Under the pieces are notes generated by a model that ran no database searches, was not told the origin of the DNA, and saw only the letters and a program-made list of their open reading frames with translations. From assembly GCF_009856605.1 (NCBI RefSeq), contig NZ_CP047242.1, positions 2,796,001-2,860,000 of the forward strand: a DNA stretch of 64,000 nucleotides. The letters run 5' to 3'. The position numbers and the translations under genes are program-made. Every line of letters begins with the position of its first letter. The first letter of the stretch is position 1. This document shows positions 30,900-57,124 of the stretch, piece after piece. The DNA comes from Trichormus variabilis 0441 (GTDB lineage: Bacteria; Cyanobacteriota; Cyanobacteriia; Cyanobacteriales; Nostocaceae).

Positions 30900-32411
30900 T
30901 TAGCGTAGCTTGCCAAAGCTGTCACTCAAGGGGCTTTGTTTTGAAGCTAGACGCGCTCTCCCTGCTGCTGCCCATTCTTGTAGTTCCTGAATCTGCTCTA
31001 CAGCCGTTCTAGCCAGGGGTATGATTTGACTAGCCGCCTCCAAAACATCGTCGGTAGTGAAATCTCGATTTTGACTAAAGCCGATGTGCATTGCTTCTAT
31101 CAAAGTTTGCTCGATTTCTGCCCCTGAAAAATCTGGTGTTTCGTATGCTAAACGCTCAATGTCATAATTTTTCAAATTGTGGGGGCGCAGTCGGGATAAA
31201 TGAACATTAAAAATGGCTTTTCTTTCTTCTTGACTGGGTAAACCAACAAAGAAAATTTCGTCAAATCGCCCTTTCCGCAACATTTCTGGTGGTAAAGCTT
31301 GGATGTTGTTGGCGGTAGCAACAACGAACACTGGGGAGGTTTTTTCAGCTAGCCAAGTAATAAATGTGCCGAAGACGCGGCTAGTGGTTCCCGCATCACC
31401 TTTACTACCCAATCCAGAAAAAGCTTTATCAATTTCATCAATCCACAGAACACAGGGTGCAAGGGCTTCTGCTACCTGAATCATTTGCCGGGTGCGGGAT
31501 TCTGATTCACCCACCAAACCGCCAAATAATCGTCCGACATCTAGGCGTAGTAGGGGTAAGTGCCAATGATGAGCGATCGCTTTTGCCGTTAAGGATTTAC
31601 CAGTACCTTGAATGCCTACTAATAATAAACCCCGTGGGTGGGGTAATCCATATTGGCGGGCGCGCTCGCTAAAGGAACCGCCACGACGTAATAACCAATC
31701 TTTGAGGTTATCTAGTCCCCCTATATCAGAAATCTGCTCAGTGGCGGGGTAAAAGTCGAGGATTTGGGTTTGGCGGATAGTTTGGCGCTTTTCCTCCAAA
31801 ACTAAATCTACGTCTTCTGGTTGCAATTCGCCATGAGTAGCGATCGCTTTCGCCAAAACCCGCCGAATTCTTTCCATCGATAGCCCTTGGCAAGAACGCA
31901 CTAAATCATCGGTAACTTTCCCAGAGAGGGAATTACCAGTAGCTTGCAGTAAACGTTCAATCTCTACTTTAATTTCTGGGGCGTTAGGTAAGGGGAACTC
32001 GACAACCGTTAAAATTTCAGTTAAATCGTCAGGAATAGCGATGCGTGGCGATAATAAGACAATATTTTTCGGTTGCGACTTCAGCAGTCTCGCCAGATTG
32101 CGGAGTTTGCGAGCGATCGCCACATCATCCAAAAATCGATGATAATCTCGCAAAATAATGACTGCTGGCGCTGATGCTGGTAATTTCTCTAAAAATTCTA
32201 AAGCTTGCAGGGGATTGCGCCGCCCAAATCCCACATCATTGGGGTTACCTTGATAACCATCGACAAAATCCCAAGTGTATACTGGGCGATTACCTTGATT
32301 GGCTGCTTCTTCACGGATAGCAGTTTCTACCCGTTCTTCTTCATAGGTAGGTATGTAAATTAACGGATAACGCGCTCTCAGTAGCAGCTTAAACTCTTCA
32401 CGGAAGTTCAT
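30900..32411 (-). CDS. ycf46: AAA+ ATPase Ycf46
   Basis: A 503-residue AAA+ protein conserved in cyanobacteria and red-lineage plastids. The N-terminal half is an inactive-looking ATPase-like domain ([37 protein letters not shown]). The C-terminal half is a full AAA module: Walker A GIQGTGKS, Walker [13 protein letters not shown], sensor 1 ATAN, arginine-finger region [14 protein letters not shown], and lid [12 protein letters not shown]. Work on the Synechocystis homologue points to a role in inorganic-carbon use; the molecular target is unknown. Upstream of the SH3b gene. Confidence 0.93.
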
Positions 32412-32594: not shown

Positions 32595-33251
32595 CTAATG
32601 ACTAATGACTAATTGCTGCTTAAAGTAGCTCTTGGGTAAAAAACAGCGATCTGGTAAGAAAGGATTATCAATATATTGAGATAAGAAAGTTCCTGGTTGG
32701 ACTCGATGACAGAATGGTGGCACAATTCCCCATTCTTCTGCTAACCAAATCCAGTATCCAATTTCGATTTTGCCGTAGCTGGATACAGTTAAAATTTCCC
32801 CAACGCTATTGTTGATAGATACTAACTCAGGGGATGACTTAACTTCGGTTAACAACCAAGCTAATTCATCTACAGAAAAGTAATAGCCATAATCAGCAGC
32901 CACTTTAGTAAACTGTTGTGGATTTTTCGCTGATAGTAATTGATCTTTGAGTAGCGGTGTTGTTTGCGCTAAATCAAATAAATTCCAAATCTGCTTCCTA
33001 GTAATGAGGAACCAAGCAATTTCTTCTGCTTTTAAGCAATATCCATTATCTACTACTAAGTTAATAAACCCTTCTAAGGTATCAACTTCTCCTAGTTGAC
33101 TTTTTAAGAATAAGTTTTGCTCCACAAAAGCAAAAAAATCAATAACTTTCTGCCAGGTTAATTTATTCGGATTATTATAAAGATTTATTTCATTCTTCCA
33201 AAAATTATACCGTTCTTCTTTTAAGAAGAAATTCCATATCTGGTAGTACAT
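32595..33251 (-). CDS. Protein with two Nif11-like domains
   Basis: A 218-residue protein starting at ATG 33251, chosen because GGAG stands nine bases upstream; the frame is open for 42 more codons without a ribosome site. Residues ~22-65 (FFAFVEQNLFLKSQLGEVDT, GFINLVVDNGYCLKAEEIAWFL) and ~72-115 (LFDLAQTTPLLKDQLLSAKN, FTKVAADYGYYFSVDELAWLL) are two Nif11-like units. Nif11 folds are best known as leader peptides of nitrile hydratase-like RiPP precursors, but here no peptide-modifying enzyme is adjacent. The last 80 residues (WIWLAEEWGIVPPFCHRVQPG, PFLPDRCFLPKSYF) are unassigned. The final residues LVISH and the stop are read from a heptamer repeat. Next to the ATPase-nuclease operon. Confidence 0.7.
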   Translation of the reverse strand: MYYQIWNFFLKEERYNFWKNEINLYNNPNKLTWQKVIDFFAFVEQNLFLKSQLGEVDTLEGFINLVVDNGYCLKAEEIAWFLITRKQIWNLFDLAQTTPLLKDQLLSAKNPQQFTKVAADYGYYFSVDELAWLLTEVKSSPELVSINNSVGEILTVSSYGKIEIGYWIWLAEEWGIVPPFCHRVQPGTFLSQYIDNPFLPDRCFLPKSYFKQQLVISH

Positions 33252-33600
33252 AATTTGTAGCTCCTTTCCTTGAATATTTGTAAAAGTATTAATAAATATC
33301 AGTGTAGTAACTATAAACCTGTATGTTCGACAGTATTCATGAAACTTCTTTTGTGAATACCAGCACACAGGGTACAAGTATATTTTCCTGTAAAAACTAT
33401 AGCTGACAGAAAAAAATTACTGAGACAAAGTTCTCAGCGATCGCTAATTTTATATTTTTAAAAATAGTGATAATTTCTAAATATATCGAAATGTTTATAT
33501 AAATTATTTAATATTTGCTTAAATACAACTCGCTTGGTAAATTGTGGAGGTGATAGAGGCGATCGCTCATTTTTCACTATGATTTGTCTGTAAATGCGAA

Positions 33601-33635
33601 GCATCTCTGTAGTTAATTTTTAACCACAGAGATGC
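33601..33635 (-). terminator. Hairpin downstream of the ATPase-nuclease operon
   Basis: GCATCTCTGT (33601-33610) pairs with ACAGAGATGC (33626-33635), and GTTAA with TTAAC inside, giving a 15-bp stem with one mismatch and a three-base loop. It starts 24 bases after the nuclease stop codon on the minus strand. There is no long U-tract, so it may stabilise the 3' end rather than be a classical terminator. Confidence 0.55.
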
Positions 33636-33658: not shown

Positions 33659-35122
33659 TTATTTTGAGTTTATTGGTAAATCGCGGAGGTAGTAAAAGCG
33701 ATCGCTCCTCCAATCACTACCTTTAACTCGTCCTAAGTAGCCTGTTAAGGGCGATGAAAGCTCTATCAAAATTTCGTGCAGTTCTTTAGATTCTAATGCT
33801 TGAGGATAATCAGATGTCATGTAGGCAGCATGAAGTGCTTCGACTCCAGCACGTTCATATTTAGTACGTTCAAGGTAATTTCTTAGTACTTGGATAATGT
33901 GCGATCGCAATTTAATCTGTTGTTCAACTTTATCAATATATTCGCCAATCTTATAGTCAATCTGTCCAGGTTCTAGGTATTTTTTTATTTCAATTAAGTT
34001 GATAGCACCAGGATATTTTGCTGAAAATTCAACTAGCTTTTGTAAAGTCATAGCATTGATAATACTTACTTTCCATTCTTGTGCTGCTTTGAGAGTATCT
34101 GCTGATGGATTACCTGGGCCAATTACTAATTTAGTTGAAAGTAGGAATTTATCTGAGCCTAAGTGCATACCACCTAGCTTAATAAGCTCCTGTACGGTAT
34201 GACTGGGAATCAGTCTACCCGCCTTACATTCACAAAGCAGAGGGTAAGGTTGTGAACAGAATAAATCTAAGCCTCCAGCACCGCCTTTATAAGCATCTTC
34301 AACCTTAAATCCTAAAAATTCTAGACTTTGACGTGTAATATTTTCAAAGTCTGTACCAGCTTGGTAATTGCTTTTTTTCTCGTCTAGCTCTATGCTGCGA
34401 TCGCCTAATTTAGCAATGTCATTTATCCAAGCTAAATCTGTATTTATTGATTGAATCTGCTTAGTGTTTTTCCAACCTAAAAATATTTGAATATCATCAT
34501 CTAATTTTTTAGCTACTGGGTTACTGATTGCAAGCAAGGCTAGAATACTCTGTAATTCTTCTAATTCTTCATGCTGTAAGGGTTCTAGTTTTTCTAGTTG
34601 TTGTCTGCGTTGTGCGAAGATGCGATCGCTTAACACTGGATTATCTTCAGTCACAGTCAGGGATCTTGGCAACGGTACAAAGTGATGGCTTTGATTTTGT
34701 ATATCAATTTCCTGTGGCTCTGGTAGTAAGTATACGCGTAGGTAAGCCAAAAAAATATAAGGTCTTTGTGCAAGAGTTTGTTGTAATGCTTGTGTAGTCC
34801 AGATTGTTAATTTAGACAAATCCTCAATAGATTCACGAGCATTCAGCATTTGGCAAACTTCACATTTCGCCCAAGCTTTAATTAAAGCTGTTTCAGTACC
34901 TAAATTTGCACTAACCGTTTGAGCAATATTTAAGAAATTTGGACGGTAGTATTTTTCATTAGGTAATAAGTTAATCGAAATATTAGCTGGATAAATACCA
35001 AAAATCTGCCCCGGATTAATGAATTTCCGAGGCATAGCTGCAATAATTCGCCCTTGTATTAGTGCTTCAGTGTCAGGAGCAGGTAAACATAGAGCATTGT
35101 ATATAAAAACTGATTTGCTCAT
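33659..35122 (-). CDS. PD-(D/E)XK (Mrr-like) nuclease-domain protein, third gene of operon
   Basis: A 487-residue protein I do not recognise as a whole. Residues 255-345 are a restriction-endonuclease-like fold: Glu260 in GTDFE, then FLGFKVEDAYKGGAGGLDLF with Asp286, then PLLCECKAG with Glu298 and Lys300, then a helix TVQELIKLGG. This is the D...ExK catalytic set, apparently complete. The N-terminal 240 residues (MSKSVFIYNALCLPAPDTEAL, LIQGRIIAAMPRKFINPGQIF) and C-terminal 140 residues are of unknown fold and may recognise DNA or partners. It starts two bases after the ATPase stop, so translation is coupled. Possible roles are defence, plasmid or phage restriction, or DNA repair. Confidence 0.75.
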   Translation of the reverse strand: MSKSVFIYNALCLPAPDTEALIQGRIIAAMPRKFINPGQIFGIYPANISINLLPNEKYYRPNFLNIAQTVSANLGTETALIKAWAKCEVCQMLNARESIEDLSKLTIWTTQALQQTLAQRPYIFLAYLRVYLLPEPQEIDIQNQSHHFVPLPRSLTVTEDNPVLSDRIFAQRRQQLEKLEPLQHEELEELQSILALLAISNPVAKKLDDDIQIFLGWKNTKQIQSINTDLAWINDIAKLGDRSIELDEKKSNYQAGTDFENITRQSLEFLGFKVEDAYKGGAGGLDLFCSQPYPLLCECKAGRLIPSHTVQELIKLGGMHLGSDKFLLSTKLVIGPGNPSADTLKAAQEWKVSIINAMTLQKLVEFSAKYPGAINLIEIKKYLEPGQIDYKIGEYIDKVEQQIKLRSHIIQVLRNYLERTKYERAGVEALHAAYMTSDYPQALESKELHEILIELSSPLTGYLGRVKGSDWRSDRFYYLRDLPINSK

Positions 35123-35124
35123 CC

Positions 35125-37098
35125 TTAATTAAATAACTCAATCAATGCGTCTGAATCATCTGTATTATCATTAATTGACGGATTTAAAAAACTGTTTATT
35201 AGTTCTTCTCCCTCAATAGCTTCTTCATCAATTTGACAAGAAGGCTCACTCAAAATTTCTAGTAACAAAGGATGTATACGAGTTATTTTCTGGGAAAATT
35301 GGATAACTTGTTCTTCGGTAAGTTGATAGTTACTGCACTTTTGATAGACATAATAAAGCTCAATAAGTGGTTTTATTTCTTCTGGTTTCAAATCTAACCA
35401 TTCGCCACCCAATTTTGACACAAGGTCTTCTAATAAATTATATGCTTTTGATGCCTTATTAATCTTATTGGATTTAGAACGCAGTAAACAACCACGATTA
35501 ATATCAAATTTTTGATAATCAGTTAGCCGATTTAATGTAGATAGTATTGATTTACTAGGTTGGCTGATAGCTACTCCAATCTTGATATTTTTTTCATTTT
35601 CTGTAGCGACAATTTTGAAATTAATGTAGCCATTGTTGGCTGATTTTTGAGCTAATTCCTCAATTGCTTGTATGATAAATCCGTTCAATCTTTCACCCGT
35701 AGAAGTCTCACCTTCTAATATTTCACCTTTGAGGGTTTCAAAGCTAAAGCGCAAAGCATCAGCAATCAAGGAATTATTATCTAAATAATTTCCAATATCT
35801 GCCTCACTTTCTCTTTTTAAAGCCAATTCAAAACGTTCTAATGGGTCTATTGGTAAAATTTCACCCTTAACCTTAAAGTTTTCTGCACACCATCTTAATG
35901 CTTCTCTAATAGTTGGTCTTCCTTTACCAAATTCTTGCAGTTGATTAACTTCAAATGGGTAGAGTAAATCCGGTGGAGTTAAATTTCTTGCATTGTAAAA
36001 GTCTTTGAGCCAAATAGTTACTAATTCAATCAGAGAATTACTATCAATATATCGTAAATCTATTGGTTTTGTACCTGTATATTTTGAAACTCTATTTGGC
36101 GTACCACCCGGTATGCTGTTTATACTATTAGTCCAGGTTTCAGGAAGCATGACTGTGATAATAACAACACCTCGACCGAGTTCATAATTTTCGAGAGTAT
36201 CATGCAGAATTTTAACTAAATTAGCAATTACGATTTCCGTGGTTAAGCCATCCTCGTTACAGTTTATTTTGACATCTATTTCGTCAAAACAAATAACTAC
36301 TGGGTTGTAGTAACTGACTAAATTTAAAATTTGCTGAATATTTTTGAGAGCTTCAGCTTCTTTGTCTTGATTAGTTTTGCTAGGGTTTGGTAATCCCAGA
36401 GCATCCGCATCAGAGTTGGCTAACTCATCACCAGACAACCATTTGATTGCAAATGGTGATTTAGTTTCTGAAAGAGTCCACAAAATAGCTCTGAGAATAT
36501 AAGGATCTGCATTTGGCTTTGTTGTCAGAACTGGTTTGATGAGCGCGTTCATCAAATTTTTGTTATTCGCTGAAAAACTTGCATCTACTTTGTCAAATCT
36601 GTTCACAAGTTCTTGAGAAGAAAGGTTTGCACCATTGGGATTAATAGCTTTGAAACCTTCATTTGCGATCGCTGCTGCTACTTCTTGCCACTGAGTTACT
36701 CCTTGACTTCCAGTTTTGCTGAGACTATCTGCCAAAGTTTGCTGAAATTGGTATTTAACTAAATTTAAATCTGTATAGTTATTGACACCTGAATATATGA
36801 ACAACGCACCACCATCAAGTTCCAGCCTATGACGAATACGGCTGAGAAGGTGTGTTTTTCCAACTCCTTTTGCCGCAGTTATGGCAATTGATGTTACTTT
36901 ATCTTGACTAGATTGACTGGTACGCACCAAATCAATTGCTTGAAAAATAGTATCAGAAGCATGGGCATTTAAGGTAGTTACGTCAAATCTCTTTTGCCAG
37001 ACATCTGATTCTGTGTTGATGCCAGCATTGGTAAATGGGTTATGGCTTTGAATAGCGGCGTTGACGGCTTCTATTGGAGAAACAGAAATATTAGTCAT
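35125..37098 (-). CDS. P-loop (AAA/ORC-like) ATPase, second gene of operon
   Basis: A 657-residue ATPase. The P-loop is AITAAKGVGKTHLLSRIRHRL (Lys81, Thr82), and Walker B is NPVVICFDEIDVK (Asp271, Glu272). A candidate sensor strand is GRGVVIITVMLPETW, and a lid-like segment is GRPTIREALRWCAENF. Between the two Walker motifs lies an insertion of about 150 residues. Residues 430-657 are unassigned and end in an acidic tail (EEAIEGEELINSFL, NDNTDDSDALIELFN). The layout suits a DNA-bound or switch-type ATPase. It sits between a winged-helix-like protein (49 bp upstream) and a PD-(D/E)XK nuclease (2 bp downstream), an arrangement common in defence and DNA-processing systems. Confidence 0.78.
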   Translation of the reverse strand: MTNISVSPIEAVNAAIQSHNPFTNAGINTESDVWQKRFDVTTLNAHASDTIFQAIDLVRTSQSSQDKVTSIAITAAKGVGKTHLLSRIRHRLELDGGALFIYSGVNNYTDLNLVKYQFQQTLADSLSKTGSQGVTQWQEVAAAIANEGFKAINPNGANLSSQELVNRFDKVDASFSANNKNLMNALIKPVLTTKPNADPYILRAILWTLSETKSPFAIKWLSGDELANSDADALGLPNPSKTNQDKEAEALKNIQQILNLVSYYNPVVICFDEIDVKINCNEDGLTTEIVIANLVKILHDTLENYELGRGVVIITVMLPETWTNSINSIPGGTPNRVSKYTGTKPIDLRYIDSNSLIELVTIWLKDFYNARNLTPPDLLYPFEVNQLQEFGKGRPTIREALRWCAENFKVKGEILPIDPLERFELALKRESEADIGNYLDNNSLIADALRFSFETLKGEILEGETSTGERLNGFIIQAIEELAQKSANNGYINFKIVATENEKNIKIGVAISQPSKSILSTLNRLTDYQKFDINRGCLLRSKSNKINKASKAYNLLEDLVSKLGGEWLDLKPEEIKPLIELYYVYQKCSNYQLTEEQVIQFSQKITRIHPLLLEILSEPSCQIDEEAIEGEELINSFLNPSINDNTDDSDALIELFN

Positions 37099-37147
37099 GG
37101 TGATTTTGTAAAGTGTGAGGAACTACAAGACTTTTGCAACTATCTGA

Positions 37148-37813
37148 TTAACTCAATCGTTTGGCGTAAGAGCGTAATTCTGCCCCAGGGATAGTGATTG
37201 AATCTTCACGTTTATCAGGAGTGAAGTCTGGTATTTCTCCAGCAATCAACTGAAAAATGTCATTAGCCTGTACTTCCAGCAGCCACTCATGAAAATTTTC
37301 ACGACTTACGCGATCGCCAATTTCTCTCCTAATGCGATAAATTGGTACTAAATCATTCAAGTTATAGTTTTGGTTTAACTTGTCGTAGACTTCCAACACC
37401 ACTGACTTAAACTCTTCATAAGAAGCGATCGCATTCTTTCCATTAACTGGTACAGATGTGTTAACTACCGCAACATCAATCTGACTAATCCACTTCACCA
37501 ACGCATTCGCCGCCCAAGTACCAACAATAGTCCCCTCAAACTTAAACTCGCCACTCCGCAAACTCTCACCCAACACTTCTAAACCCTTTGGCGATGTTAG
37601 AGTGTATCCTTGCTTAGAGATGGCGATCGCTCCTTGTTCCTGTAATTCTTCAAATACACCCTGATAATCTGCCGCTTTCTTACCCTTCGATAAAATTCGT
37701 TTGTTGAGTTGTCCTTTCTTTACTTCCTGCTGCATTCCCCCCAAATCCCACAAAGCAAGCAGAAGACGAGTTTTAGTTTTGGCAAGCTGTAAACTATCTT
37801 TACCCGAACCCAT
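37148..37813 (-). CDS. Winged-helix-like protein, first gene of operon
   Basis: A 221-residue protein without a family name I can give. Residues 14-75 look like a winged helix (TRLLLALWDLGGMQQEVKKG, VFEELQEQGAIAISKQGYTLTSPKGLEVLGESL: helix, recognition-like helix, wing). Residues 128-220 may be a second such unit (FKSVVLEVYDKLNQ, NLNDLVPIYRIRREIG, VSRENFHEWLLEVQANDIFQL). It could recognise DNA for the ATPase and nuclease that follow, or regulate the operon. A TGATGTA...TACATCA inverted repeat (37815-37849) lies directly before its ATG and may be its own operator. Confidence 0.7.
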   Translation of the reverse strand: MGSGKDSLQLAKTKTRLLLALWDLGGMQQEVKKGQLNKRILSKGKKAADYQGVFEELQEQGAIAISKQGYTLTSPKGLEVLGESLRSGEFKFEGTIVGTWAANALVKWISQIDVAVVNTSVPVNGKNAIASYEEFKSVVLEVYDKLNQNYNLNDLVPIYRIRREIGDRVSRENFHEWLLEVQANDIFQLIAGEIPDFTPDKREDSITIPGAELRSYAKRLS

Positions 37814-37849: not shown

Positions 37850-38235
37850 TTATAGTTTGCTTTTTCTTACACACTTGGCTTAAGTACCATTGAAAAATCT
37901 CTTGATTTTTTACGAAAAATAGCTGTTTTGTTCAATAAAACAAATATTTTTATTAACCCTATGTAATTTTTTATATATTTGATGACACAAATTTTCTGAT
38001 ATTTTACCTAAGCATAAAAGCCACAGGATATCTTATTAGAAATTAAGGTTTCAATGCGATAAGTTTTGCCGATCGCTCCTAATTTCTCCCTACATGATTT
38101 TCCGAGCGTACTAACCACAAGCCTATTTCTTTGGAGCGATCGCAATGTCTCTCAAAAGTAGGACGGAATACATGACAAATCAGATCACCATATACAACAG
38201 TTGTCCTCAGACAGAATTTCCCCAGGAGATAGATT
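37850..38235. other. Non-coding divergent region
   Basis: About 390 bp, AT-rich, between the operon and the acidic protein gene. It should hold both promoters. A short inverted repeat (TGTTTTGTTC / AATAAAACA, near 37920-37942) is visible. No credible gene. Confidence 0.5.
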
Positions 38236-38493
38236 ATGGTGGGTGATTTTTTCCGTAAAGCCAAAGATTTTATGGGCGGTTCCAGAGACGAAGATCGTGG
38301 TTATCGGGAACGTTGGGAAGAGAGCGATCGCCCCTCCCGTAATGACCGTTATGAAGATGAAGAGGATGAAGAGGAGTATTCTGGCGATGTCCGCCGCTCC
38401 CGCGATGACCGTTATGAAGACGAAGAAGATGAAGGGGAGTATTCTAGCCGTTCTCGCAGAGACCGCTATGACGACGAAGACGAGGACGAATAA
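38236..38493 (+). CDS. Highly acidic repeat protein, unknown
   Basis: An 85-residue protein with AGGAG nine bases before ATG 38236. The first 15 residues (MVGDFFRKAKDFMGG) could form an amphipathic helix. The rest is charged low-complexity sequence with two or three copies of a DRYEDEEDEEEYS-like unit separated by Arg/Ser. The start recalls the membrane-targeting helix plus acidic linker of SepF, but the SepF core domain is absent. The charge pattern and the ribosome site argue for a real, probably disordered, protein. Function unknown. Confidence 0.65.
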   Translation: MVGDFFRKAKDFMGGSRDEDRGYRERWEESDRPSRNDRYEDEEDEEEYSGDVRRSRDDRYEDEEDEGEYSSRSRRDRYDDEDEDE

Positions 38494-53227: not shown

Positions 53228-53470
53228 ATCGATATCTAATGAGCAAAAAGACTTATGTAACTAGACATTAAGCAGTCTATCACTTGAGACGGGATAATTT
53301 AGTTATTTCTTCAACTATTGGATTGATAAATCCGCAAGCTGACAGAAATAATTTATTTGATAAAGATAAACTAATTGGGAATAGATTTTTAGTTATTTTC
53401 CACCTCCATACATAGGACATTAATATCGATTTAATGTGAGTTTAATAGTGATGCTTGTTAAAGGAATGTG

Positions 53471-54055
53471 ATGTTGAAAAAAACAGCTTTATTAGATGCG
53501 ATCGCCGGGACTAATCGCGGTTTATTGGCTAGTGAACAGCAGAAACGGGCTATCTTAGCAGCGATCGCTACATTAGAAGACCTCAATCCTACACCGCGTC
53601 CAGTAGAAAATGCCAATCTGCTAGACGGCAATTGGCGACTACTATACACCACCAGTAAAGCTCTTTTAAACTTAGATCGCGTACCTGTATATAAACTTGG
53701 ACAAATTTATCAGTGTATTCGGGTAGAAACTACCAGCGTTTACAACATAGCAGAGATTTATGGCTTACCTTATCTCGAAGGATTAGTTAGCGTAGCTGCC
53801 AAATTTGAGCCAGTTTCAGAACGGCGTGTTCAAGTGAAATTCCAACGTTCCATCGTTGGTTTACAACGATTAATCGGGTACACTTCCCCAGAAGACTTTA
53901 TCCAACGAATTGAAGCTGGTAAAAAGTTCACTGCCCTAGACATACTTATAAAAAGTGATACACAGCAGGGATGGTTAGATATCACCTACATAGATCACAA
54001 CTTACGCATTGGCAGGGGTAACGAGGGTAGCGTGTTTGTTTTAAGTAAAACATAA
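53471..54055 (+). CDS. PAP/fibrillin (plastid lipid-associated) family protein
   Basis: A 194-residue lipocalin-like protein. ATG 53471 is preferred over the preceding GTG, with AAAGGA upstream. Pattern: LLDAIAGTNRGLLASEQQKRAILAAIATLEDLNPTPRP, LLDGNWRLLYTTSKALLNLDRVPVYKLGQIYQC, GWLDITYIDHNLRIGRGNEGSVFVLSK, all standard for cyanobacterial fibrillins. These bind lipids or isoprenoids at thylakoids and protect photosystems under stress. It precedes psaE on the same strand, but 308 bp separate them. Confidence 0.9.
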   Translation: MLKKTALLDAIAGTNRGLLASEQQKRAILAAIATLEDLNPTPRPVENANLLDGNWRLLYTTSKALLNLDRVPVYKLGQIYQCIRVETTSVYNIAEIYGLPYLEGLVSVAAKFEPVSERRVQVKFQRSIVGLQRLIGYTSPEDFIQRIEAGKKFTALDILIKSDTQQGWLDITYIDHNLRIGRGNEGSVFVLSKT

Positions 54056-54363
54056 GTTTTTTCTTAAAAATGTGTTTGCGAACGAAGTTACGCGATCATT
54101 TAACCTTTGTCAAGGAGGGTCTGACCCCCGTCTTAAGGCTGAGATTGGCAAGGAAACAGTGACTAAAGGAGGAGATTGACACTAGAGGCAAAGAATCGAG
54201 AAAAACCTATGACTGTTGACTATGAGCAACTGATAACTGACAGCCGACAAATAACCAATCAGACAAATAACTTAACAAAGCCTCTAGTGATGGCATTCAA
54301 GATGTAGAGTGAAATCAAATAGCCCTATATATTGGCAATTGATAACTAAAAGGGAAGATACTC
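54056..54363 (+). promoter_or_regulatory. Upstream region of psaE
   Basis: 308 bp without a gene. AAGGGAAG at about 54350 is the probable ribosome site. A small palindrome GGGTCTGACCC at 54118-54128 and heptamer-like AACTGATAACTGACAG (54228 on) are visible. Promoter elements not placed. Confidence 0.4.
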
Positions 54364-54579
54364 ATGGTTCAACGTGGTTCTAAAGTACGTATTCTCCGCC
54401 CAGAATCCTACTGGTTCCAAGATGTCGGAACTGTAGCTTCTGTTGACCAAAGTGGCATCAAATACCCAGTAATTGTCCGCTTTGATAAGGTAAACTACTC
54501 TGGCATCAACACCAACAACTTTGCGGTAGATGAATTAATAGAGGTGGAAGCACCTAAAGCCAAGCCTGCTAAAAAATAA
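54364..54579 (+). CDS. psaE: Photosystem I subunit IV (PsaE)
   Basis: A 71-residue peripheral PSI subunit on the stromal/cytoplasmic side, needed for ferredoxin docking and cyclic electron flow. The whole sequence matches the family: [62 protein letters not shown], then a Lys-rich tail. SH3-like fold. mutM follows 237 bp downstream on the same strand. Confidence 0.98.
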
Positions 54580-54816
54580 GCAGCCAAGCCTCAAAGGGAT
54601 TATTTAATGGGATGATGGGAGAAGGGTAAAATTATAGATACGAAGTATGAAATTATAATTTTTCATTCTTCACATCAGCCTACTCTACCGTATACCAACC
54701 GCCATGCGGATATTTACGGATTCTCCTGAGTAGTGCAACAAAGATTTAGAGTGTCTATATTCTTTCTCGTTTTTGATTTCCAAAAAGTATTCCCATAGCT
54801 TGCTCAATCAGCTTAA

Positions 54817-55650
54817 ATGCCTGAATTGCCTGAAGTTGAAACAGTACGGCGGGGTTTAAACCAACTAACCCTAAACCGAAAAATTACGGGTGGAGATGTG
54901 TTGCTTCATCGCACCATCGCTCACCCTTTTTCTGTTGGTGATTTTTTGAATGGAATTACCGGTGATTCCATTAGTGCTTGGCATCGTCGCGGTAAATATC
55001 TCCTCGCTTCCACTACTTCCGCCGCTTGGCTAGGTGTGCATCTGAGGATGACTGGTCAATTACTGTGGTTAAACCAAGATGAGCCTTTACATAAGCACAC
55101 GCGGGTAAGAATATTTTTCGAGGATCAACAGGAATTACGCTTTGTTGACCAACGAACTTTCGGTCAAATGTGGTGGGTTTCATCGGGAATGGCTGTAGAA
55201 AGCGTGATTACTGGTTTAGCTAAACTTGCCGTAGATCCCTTTTCACCTGAATTTACTGTTGAGTACCTTGCTAATAAGCTGCATAATCGTCGCCGTCCCA
55301 TAAAAACAGCACTATTAGACCAGTCGGTTGTTGCAGGATTAGGTAACATCTATGCTGACGAAGCATTGTTTAAAAGTGGTGTGTTACCAGAAACTCTATG
55401 TACAGAAGTGCAGTTAAAGCAAATTGAGCTTTTGAGGACGGCAATTATTCAAGTTTTGGAAACCAGTATTGAGGCTGGTGGTACAACTTTTAGTAATTTT
55501 CTCAACGTTAAAGGGGTCAACGGTAATTATGGTGGTGTCGCCTGGGTGTATAACCGTGCAGGGGAACCATGTAAAGTTTGTGGTGATGTAATTCAGCGCA
55601 TCAAGCTAGGTGGAAGATCCAGCCATTTTTGTCGCCAGTGTCAAGTTTAG
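54817..55650 (+). CDS. mutM: Formamidopyrimidine-DNA glycosylase
   Basis: Base-excision repair enzyme removing 8-oxoguanine and ring-opened purines. 277 residues. The catalytic N-terminus MPELPEVETVRRGL (Pro2 nucleophile, Glu3) is intact, as are HLRMTGQLLW, the helix-two-turn-helix (LLDQSVVAGLGNIYADEALF) and the C-terminal zinc finger (CKVCGDVIQRIKLGGRSSHFCRQC). Its place after psaE, a source of oxidative stress, recurs in cyanobacteria. Confidence 0.97.
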   Translation: MPELPEVETVRRGLNQLTLNRKITGGDVLLHRTIAHPFSVGDFLNGITGDSISAWHRRGKYLLASTTSAAWLGVHLRMTGQLLWLNQDEPLHKHTRVRIFFEDQQELRFVDQRTFGQMWWVSSGMAVESVITGLAKLAVDPFSPEFTVEYLANKLHNRRRPIKTALLDQSVVAGLGNIYADEALFKSGVLPETLCTEVQLKQIELLRTAIIQVLETSIEAGGTTFSNFLNVKGVNGNYGGVAWVYNRAGEPCKVCGDVIQRIKLGGRSSHFCRQCQV

Positions 55651-55779
55651 GGGTGTAGAGAAAAAATAATTGTTTCCATTGAAAGTATTGATACCTGTCG
55701 CACCCCAGGTAAATTGAACTTTTGTACTCGGCTGCAAGCTAAAATCCTCTATGAGCCGATAAAAAAATAGAGGGGATTT

Positions 55780-55992
55780 ATGCCAGTTAAAAAAGGAGAA
55801 ATGGTTCGCGCTATCCGCGAGAAACTAGAAAATAGTGTAGAAGCGACAGCCAGCGATACTCGCTTTCCAGCTTACTTGTTTGAAACTAAGGGTGAAGTCG
55901 TAGATATCAAAGGTGATTACGCACTGGTAATGTTTGGACAAGTACCAACGCCTAATATCTGGTTACGTTTAGATCAAATTGAATCGTTTTAA
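55780..55992 (+). CDS. ndhO: NAD(P)H-quinone oxidoreductase subunit O
   Basis: A 70-residue peripheral subunit of the cyanobacterial NDH-1 complex (ferredoxin-plastoquinone reductase). The sequence [60 protein letters not shown] is the full NdhO domain. No membrane segment. 129 bp after mutM, 157 bp before mdh, same strand. Confidence 0.96.
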
Positions 55993-56149
55993 CGCGGGGA
56001 GTAGGGGAAGAGACTTTAGCTAACTAATGTCGAGTTTCCTTGCTTCCAGCCAATTCACTCCATGACAAATTACAATTTGCGAATTACAAGTTACAAATTC
56101 ATCTAAGTTGTTAAGGTGGGTGGTGTAAGGATGCAATTCTACTCGAACT

Positions 56150-57124
56150 ATGTCTTCTTCTCCAGACTCCCCCCCAATTTTGCATCGTCTACCTCGTGTC
56201 GCCATTATTGGTGCTGGTAGGGTTGGTAGCACTTTAGCTCAACGTATTGCTGAAAAAAATCTAGCAGATGTGGTGCTATTAGATATTGTTGAGGGTATGC
56301 CTCAAGGATTGGCACTAGATTTATTAGAAGCTAGGGGTATTGAACTGCATAATCGTCAGATTATCGGCACAAATAATTATGCTGATACCTCTGGTTCACA
56401 AATTGTCGTTATAACAGCCGGATTTCCCCGCAAGCCAGGGATGAGTCGGGATGACTTGTTGAGAACTAACGCCAAAATTGTTGTGGAAGCAGCAAAGCAA
56501 GCGATCGCCTACTCTCCCTGTGCTATTTTTATCGTAGTCACTAATCCTCTGGATGTAATGACCTATTTAGCTTGGGAAGCTACAGGTTTACCCCGTAACC
56601 GCATCATGGGTATGGCTGGGGTGTTAGACTCGGCAAGATTTGAAACTTTTATAGCCTTGGAATTAGGAGTATTACCTGCGGATGTCAAAGCGATGGTATT
56701 GGGTAGTCATGGGGATTTGATGGTTCCCCTGTCTCGTCATGCCACAGTTAATGGTATCCCGATTACAGAATTGTTAGATGCAGCCACAATAGAAAGGTTG
56801 GTGGAGAGAACCCGTAATGGTGGTGCGGAAATTGTGGAACTTATGCAGACTGGTGGCGCATTTTTTGCACCTGCATCAGCTACAAGTTTGATGGTGGAAT
56901 CGATTTTATTGAATCAGTCGCGCCTGTTACCTGTGTCTGTATATCTGCAAGGCGAATATGGTTTAAAAGATGTAGTGATTGGTGTTCCTTGTCGCCTGGG
57001 ATTAAATGGAATTGAGAGTGTAATCGAATTAAATCTCAGTGATAGTGAAAGAGAAGCTTTACAAACTTCGGCTCAATCGGTGCAGAAAAATATTGAGCGA
57101 TGGCATTCTACCCAGCATAGCTGA
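56150..57124 (+). CDS. mdh: Malate dehydrogenase (LDH-like type)
   Basis: Interconverts malate and oxaloacetate with NAD. 324 residues: Rossmann motif VAIIGAGRVGSTLAQRI, cofactor Asp in LLDIVEGMPQG, substrate loop AGFPRKPGMSRDDLL (the Arg typical of malate specificity), VVTNPLDVMTYLAW, MAGVLDSARFETFIA, and the catalytic His in VLGSHGDLMVPL. Intact. It lies at the end of the psaE-mutM-ndhO-mdh row. Confidence 0.96.
   Translation: MSSSPDSPPILHRLPRVAIIGAGRVGSTLAQRIAEKNLADVVLLDIVEGMPQGLALDLLEARGIELHNRQIIGTNNYADTSGSQIVVITAGFPRKPGMSRDDLLRTNAKIVVEAAKQAIAYSPCAIFIVVTNPLDVMTYLAWEATGLPRNRIMGMAGVLDSARFETFIALELGVLPADVKAMVLGSHGDLMVPLSRHATVNGIPITELLDAATIERLVERTRNGGAEIVELMQTGGAFFAPASATSLMVESILLNQSRLLPVSVYLQGEYGLKDVVIGVPCRLGLNGIESVIELNLSDSEREALQTSAQSVQKNIERWHSTQHS

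Follow-up and report, generated by a model that had tools for sequence, protein, structure and literature searches.

What do three tightly packed genes of the cyanobacterium Trichormus variabilis 0441, encoding a winged-helix protein (g1), an AAA+ ATPase (g2) and a nuclease (g3), do for their host? The genes occupy positions 33659..37813 of a 64,000-nt stretch of DNA, which we call the window, and an earlier interpretation made from the letters (the sequence-only reading) took them for an undescribed nuclease-ATPase defence system. Our analysis supports that view indirectly, through genomic context. No PADLOC model matches the three proteins, their gene order is kept, the nuclease has invariant catalytic residues, and some relatives have Bunzi-like genes or a PLD/SNF2 helicase gene in the slot of the operon. 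From sequence comparisons we consider it probable (about 0.7) that g1-g2-g3 forms an undescribed three-component, ATP-dependent restriction-type defence system against phage or plasmid DNA.

As had been read, the three genes lie on the minus strand with gaps of 49 and 2 bp. g1 (37148..37813) encodes a winged-helix protein of 221 amino acids (aa), g2 (35125..37098) an AAA+ ATPase of 657 aa, and g3 (33659..35122) a protein of 487 aa in which DUF1802 is followed by an Mrr-like nuclease and a C-terminal domain; the parts of these genes given below refer to the same strand. The three are genuine, complete and conserved genes. Sequence profiles from the PDB gave no credible relative for the three proteins (best E 0.044, 0.48 and 0.13).

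The catalytic residues of g3 are D286, E298 and K300 with an additional E260, exactly as read before, and they are invariant in 83 of 83 full-length relatives. These 83 triads (as we call complete g1-g2-g3 sets) reduce to 77 distinct ones because six genomes were fetched twice; six of the 89 chained triads were left out for length. The nuclease domain, residues 256-362 (34037..34357), belongs to the first of two types and matched the Pfam family Mrr_cat at 21.7 bits against a cut-off of 21, and a type-2 relative scored 20.8, just below. With an Mrr_cat match and complete catalytic residues, g3 is predicted to be an Mrr-like restriction nuclease of the PD-(D/E)XK kind. Residues 10-175 (34598..35095) constitute DUF1802 (Pfam PF08819, E 6.3e-32), which had not been mentioned before. 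No FtsK/HerA family was found in g3 in Pfam at E up to 1. The C-terminal domain also occurs alone, as a 160-aa open reading frame (ORF) in a genome outside the window's order (L128:5851-6330).

The predicted model of g2 (mean pLDDT, the predicted local distance difference test, 84.9) has an AAA+ fold which in structure comparison resembled ORC, Cdc6, TnsC and BrxC, and it contains both Walker motifs, as is typical of AAA+ proteins. The AAA+ core with its large helical insertion spans residues 13-411 (35866..37062) and is ORC/Cdc6/TnsC-like. Walker A (residues 78-83, 36850..36867) has G78, G80 and K81 in 83/83 relatives, and the P-loop residues Lys81 and Thr82 are where they had been placed. 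The Asp-Glu pair of Walker B (region 267-275, 36274..36300) is likewise present, but one residue away from the 271-272 given earlier: D272 is found in 83/83 and E273 in 76/83, with Q in the remaining seven. Pfam gave weak AAA/KAP-type P-loop matches, and the best NCBIfam match, to an Sll1717-type ATPase, reached 34.7 bits, below the cut-off of 75. Behind the core, residues 436-590 (35329..35793) form an alpha/beta domain in the secondary structure of the model. The order of its elements may resemble a degenerate PD-(D/E)XK fold; since hhalign found no match between this domain and the g3 nuclease, we keep this as an inference. Solo g2 relatives were seen in three genomes (L112, L113 and L116), and the L112 copy adjoins a vWA (TerF-like) protein. 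A TnsC-like ATPase together with an endonuclease could also be the remnant of a domesticated Tn7-like transposon. However, ORC/Cdc6 chains match g2 equally well and Pfam gave no Tns or transposase family for g1 or g3, and we regard such an origin as extremely improbable.

g1 had been described as one or two winged helices. The first, residues 1-90 (37544..37813), agrees with fold comparison of the predicted structure, and the C-terminal domain, residues 130-219 (37157..37426), is a probable second one, for which the evidence is predicted secondary structure. g1 matched no family in Pfam, a Foldseek search of the PDB gave no match below E 0.001, and the C-terminal domain of g3 had no hhalign match to the domains of g1.

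The three genes are kept together. A genome scan gave 60 loci, 59 of them cyanobacterial, and the survey of gene neighbourhoods which had been proposed as a check found that 55 of the 59 (pieces of broken copies counted) have the three on the same strand and ordered g1-g2-g3. Three of the four exceptions stop at contig ends (L019, L036, L047) and one lacks g3 (L057). Broken copies were seen at L049, L055 and L061, tandem copies at L028 and L044, and one record has two loci (L026 and L038). Among 244 sampled genomes of the phylum, 46 had a match to g2, 42 to g1 and 45 to g3, not all of them strong or complete. All three models were matched in 39 genomes, and with G133 left out for its partial pieces the full set is present in 38/244. 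By our own tally it is carried by 22 of the 28 sampled genomes of the window's family.

Within this fixed order the genes have separate histories. Because loci L003-L062 had been collected with patterns of a single g2 type, that type is favoured in counts over the 83 triads, and we therefore compared a less biased set of 33 triads. Among these, alignments show that the genes diverge separately and that modules are shuffled. Three pairs from the same genus illustrate this: L089/L091, with identities of 0.82 in g1, 0.42 in g2 and 0.75 in g3 against 0.93 in nine flank proteins; L075/L076, with 0.79, 0.44 and 0.54 against 0.89 in seven; and L082/L089, with 0.83, 0.43 and 0.50 against 0.91 in eight. 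The reverse was seen in L097/L105, where g2 (0.93) and seven flank proteins (0.86) are conserved and the nuclease and C-terminal part of g3 have 27-50% identity. The g3 nuclease comes in two exchangeable types, in 52 and 31 of the 83 triads (48 and 29 of the 77 distinct ones). The pairs window/L075 and L097/L105 have opposite types; in 40-residue windows, identity drops to about 22-50% at the nuclease domain and stays there for most of the C-terminal domain; the part ahead of the nuclease mostly has 45-92%, L097/L105 dipping to 32-40% in places. g2 of type 1 was accompanied by DUF1802 of type 1 in 5/5 cases among the 33 triads, and the nuclease of these five was of type 1 four times and of type 2 once. 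Ten of 11 pairs had ratios of nonsynonymous to synonymous substitution rates (dN/dS) of 0.06-0.46 and one pair was identical; the proteins are therefore under purifying selection in the tested pairs.

In some relatives other genes take the place of the operon. The g1 search recovered g1 pieces without g2-g3. Two foreign, Bunzi-like genes come after the first third of g1 in L119, L120 and L121. Behind them, L119 (a 19-residue match) and L120 still have a short piece of g3 from close to its end; no such piece was found in L121. The larger foreign gene of L120 matched BnzB of Bunzi in PADLOC (E 3.8e-62) and has 94% identity with its counterparts in L119 and L121; the smaller one matched PDC-M09A (E 1.7e-13) and BnzA (E 0.0025). 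When L120 was compared with L026 from Sphaerospermopsis kisseleviana, which has the triad, the two were 93.4% identical until about 235 bp into g1 and 96% identical again in the last 80 bp or so of g3 and beyond. Between these breakpoints L026 has the rest of the triad and L120 the Bunzi-like genes, and this alignment shows an exchange in place. Bunzi is named as an anti-phage system in passages of two papers (PMC10952713, PMC10121019). BnzB was found in 5/244 genomes, three of them in the window's family and all three in the operon slot; the fetched stretches of the other two (G213 and G135) had no g1-g3 piece. L111 has an intact g1 and behind it a PLD/SNF2 helicase of 1097 aa which matched the DpdE, DrmD and HKD+Snf2 models, and in L118 only the end of g3 is retained.

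Could the operon serve housekeeping instead? Across 92 operon loci (genomes counted twice included), the recurrent upstream neighbours were ndhO (37), mutM (31), mdh (28) and psaE (26), and a transporter permease (28), for example, recurred downstream; these are the names which we take the neighbours to have from their sequences. About 11 Microcoleaceae-type loci have another shared neighbour set. At many other Nostocales loci, genes for PAP-fibrillin, psaE, mutM, ndhO and mdh lie upstream of g1 on the same strand. In the window, genes which presumably are the same five lie at 53468..57121 on the plus strand (the psaE-mdh block, 53.4-57.1 kb), and mdh is about 19 kb from g1; given this distance and the opposite strand, a rearrangement probably split the neighbourhood from the operon. 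The site looks like a vertically kept chromosomal site and not a mobile island. Core-genome positions of homologues had been named beforehand as a sign against a defence system, and this recurrent Nostocales site among housekeeping-type genes is partly of that kind.

A housekeeping factor of DNA repair or replication, whose ATPase marks damaged or stalled DNA for processing by the nuclease, would fit such a site and the carriage by 22/28 genomes of the family. It would also fit the purifying selection and the searches of mobile elements, in which g1, g2 and g3 had no match in 72,556 plasmid records and g2 and g3 none in 50,697 phage records; g1 and g2 had none in IMG/VR either (records very near the window were possibly omitted from these collections). 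It does not explain why the operon is lost, leaving remnants or an empty site, why Bunzi-like genes and a PLD/SNF2 helicase replace it, why ATPase and nuclease parts are swapped between divergent types with conserved flanks, or why there are tandem copies. The occupancy of the site was followed in eight genomes (two of ten had no match), L142 and L143 in part only. L140 has a clean empty site with both flanks present, the site of L139 is rearranged, and none of the eight stretches had triad remnants at E up to 1e-3. Near the empty site of L140, a 1060-aa protein adjoins mdh (L140:9166-12345), NACHT-like as judged by eye. Weighing both sides, we consider a repair or replication role unlikely.

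Relatives of the first two genes occur with other partners. In L114, L115 and L125, a distant g1' and g2' are followed by g3', a protein with 3'-5' exonuclease, PDDEXK_1 and FtsK parts, the start of which is broken in L114. This sister module, with a g3' that is a 3'-5' exonuclease/Cas4-like/FtsK fusion, was found at L114, L115, L125 and L129-L136, and g2' stands ahead of g3' in 8/8 loci checked (two of them the L115 and L114 loci again). hhalign related g2 to g2' (E 4.9e-20) and residues about 47-216 of g1, the C-terminal domain within them, to g1' (E 1.8e-10). Of the two loci compared with Pfam and PADLOC, the FtsK part of g3' matched SspH with E 5e-62 (L115) and 1.4e-68 (L125). G233 has a sister g3' at a distance of about 8 kb from its triad, with intervening genes that read as housekeeping; neither g1' nor g2' was found beside it. 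In a Synergistales metagenome-assembled genome (L062:7271-10810) consecutive genes encode a winged-helix-like protein whose match to g1 is weak (probability 7%), a g2-like ATPase (hhalign E 7e-14) and a PDDEXK_1 nuclease. At L126:3414-8407 a DUF559 nuclease, a winged-helix-like protein weakly matching g1 and an AAA+/HerA fusion of 1085 aa form what is possibly a further defence module. Together with the sister module, these rows indicate that the pair of ORC-like ATPase and winged-helix-like neighbour combines with several nuclease or translocase partners. An 848-aa RNase_T/DEDDh-type exonuclease fused to a P-loop ATPase was seen at L117:5960-8503.

The Synergistales relatives also bear on a role in developmental or altruistic DNA degradation, that is, programmed cell death in filaments which is not tied to phage. 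Nearly all named hosts in the genome scan belong to genera that we take to be filamentous, in line with such a role. However, distant relatives of the module in Synergistales do not fit it and the exchange with Bunzi-like genes would go unexplained, so that we judge it very unlikely.

The SspH-like domain of the sister module might point to DNA phosphorothioation. The available part of one report states that Nostocales carry dnd genes without dndFGH and that dndFGH are absent in Cyanobacteria (PMC8569181), and g1-g2-g3 might then be the restriction partner of this "orphan" Dnd modification, cutting DNA without the sulfur mark as SspFGH and DndFGH do. DndC was found above the cut-off in 33/38 triad genomes compared with 33/206 others. 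Within the window's order, however, the association is weak (32/34 vs 33/41, Fisher p 0.10, or p 0.32 with G133 as a carrier), and shared ancestry therefore explains most of the co-occurrence. Five triad genomes have no DndC above the cut-off (G051, G159, G027, G033 and G060, the last with a weaker match), the window's genome has its dndC some 1.2 Mb away from the operon, and g3 has no FtsK domain. A DndF search of the window's genome gave no match, and its control likewise matched nowhere. A strong phosphorothioate link, suggested by DndC in 35/40 genomes, was weakened once the background was counted. On balance a partnership with Dnd appears quite unlikely. Equally doubtful is a wider proposal in which the operon and the sister module, with its SspH-like motor, would be the missing restriction halves of an ancient cyanobacterial Dnd modification, shuffling their cassettes and trading their slot with Bunzi.

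As a restriction-type defence system, g1-g2-g3 could work as follows. The winged helices of g1 would make it a conserved adaptor that binds DNA, g2, or both. The ORC/TnsC-like ATPase g2 would be loaded on DNA, or assemble along it, using ATP, and would license the nuclease. g3 would dock through DUF1802 and cut with its Mrr-like domain, the target presumably being phage or plasmid DNA and the DNA of the host being spared. Several observations speak against a defence role. The operon has no modification enzyme. It was not found on plasmids, on phages (g2, g3) or in IMG/VR (g1, g2). In Nostocales it stands at recurrent chromosomal sites among housekeeping-type genes, not in a classical defence island, and the expected defence-island placement was not borne out in the window: among ten nearby proteins two have PADLOC matches (IetA and PDC-M51A), neither convincing. 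The close pairs L080/L094 and L081/L090 show no swap. Between the window and L075 or L076 a single flank protein is comparable (0.67 and 0.70), so the window's own swap has no good baseline. Finally, BnzA, the partner of BnzB, is matched weakly (E 0.0025), and the label Bunzi-like thus rests mainly on BnzB.

The two nearby matches in the window are an AAA protein at 30900-32411, presumably Ycf46-like, which matched IetA (E 4.9e-24) through its AAA part only, and a radical-SAM-like protein which matched PDC-M51A (3e-10). Downstream of g3, at 32595-33377, lies a 260-aa Nif11-domain protein with relatives at 10/92 operon loci. The operon had been described as framed by an inverted repeat and a hairpin, which is half right. 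The near-perfect 16-bp hairpin 3' of g3 (33601..33635, minus strand) is strong (-23.6 kcal/mol, z -8.8 against shuffles) and has no U-run. The inverted repeat 5' of g1 (37910..37956, minus strand) folds no better than shuffled sequences (z -1.0). A charged ORF lies at 38236..38493 on the plus strand, and similar ORFs were seen by eye upstream of g1 in some relatives.

If the operon is a defence system, filamentous cyanobacteria, about whose immunity little is known, would have one more restriction-type system, and a widespread one, and DUF1802 would gain a context. The chromosomal slot of the operon would then be one in which unrelated defence systems take each other's place and the breakpoints fall within the conserved ends of genes. 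As the restriction partner that cyanobacterial phosphorothioation lacks, the operon would be an unlikely but testable candidate, and it may help to explain the poor transformability of some strains.

How does g1-g2-g3 compare with known systems? The sequence-only reading could match the set to no named system, and we agree: in PADLOC-DB 2.0.0 (2023), g1, g2 and g3 matched 0 families at E up to 1, and type-2 g3 (from L075) had 0 matches at E up to 0.1. No description of the set was seen in the literature listed for DUF1802 or for cyanobacterial Mrr/AAA+ defence, and the available sections of a paper on ternary conflict systems mention Mrr-like effectors and do not describe it (PMC7159879). Like SspFGH, of which three genes, one with a Walker A motif, are given in the part of the source consulted (PMC8092258), the operon has three genes, one of them (g2) for a P-loop ATPase. 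The sister module of g1-g2 carries an SspH-like FtsK domain, whereas g3 here combines DUF1802 with an Mrr nuclease and has no FtsK, and no SspFGH model of PADLOC matched g1-g3. Mrr is a single protein. g3 shares its PD-(D/E)XK Mrr_cat domain and complete catalytic residues, but its nuclease is fused to DUF1802 and encoded together with an ATPase and a winged-helix protein in one operon. BrxC of BREX resembles g2 in fold, yet no BREX model of PADLOC matched g1-g3, which have a nuclease of their own; nor did a Bunzi model, although Bunzi-like genes occupy the same slot in relatives. McrBC consists of an AAA+ motor and a PD-(D/E)XK nuclease, and g2 and g3 likewise would be an AAA+ subunit and a separate nuclease subunit; g2, however, resembles ORC/TnsC, and no McrB or McrC family was found in the Pfam scan at E up to 1. 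By analogy, g1-g2-g3, which we assign to none of these systems, may work like the ATPase-plus-nuclease restriction systems McrBC and SspFGH.

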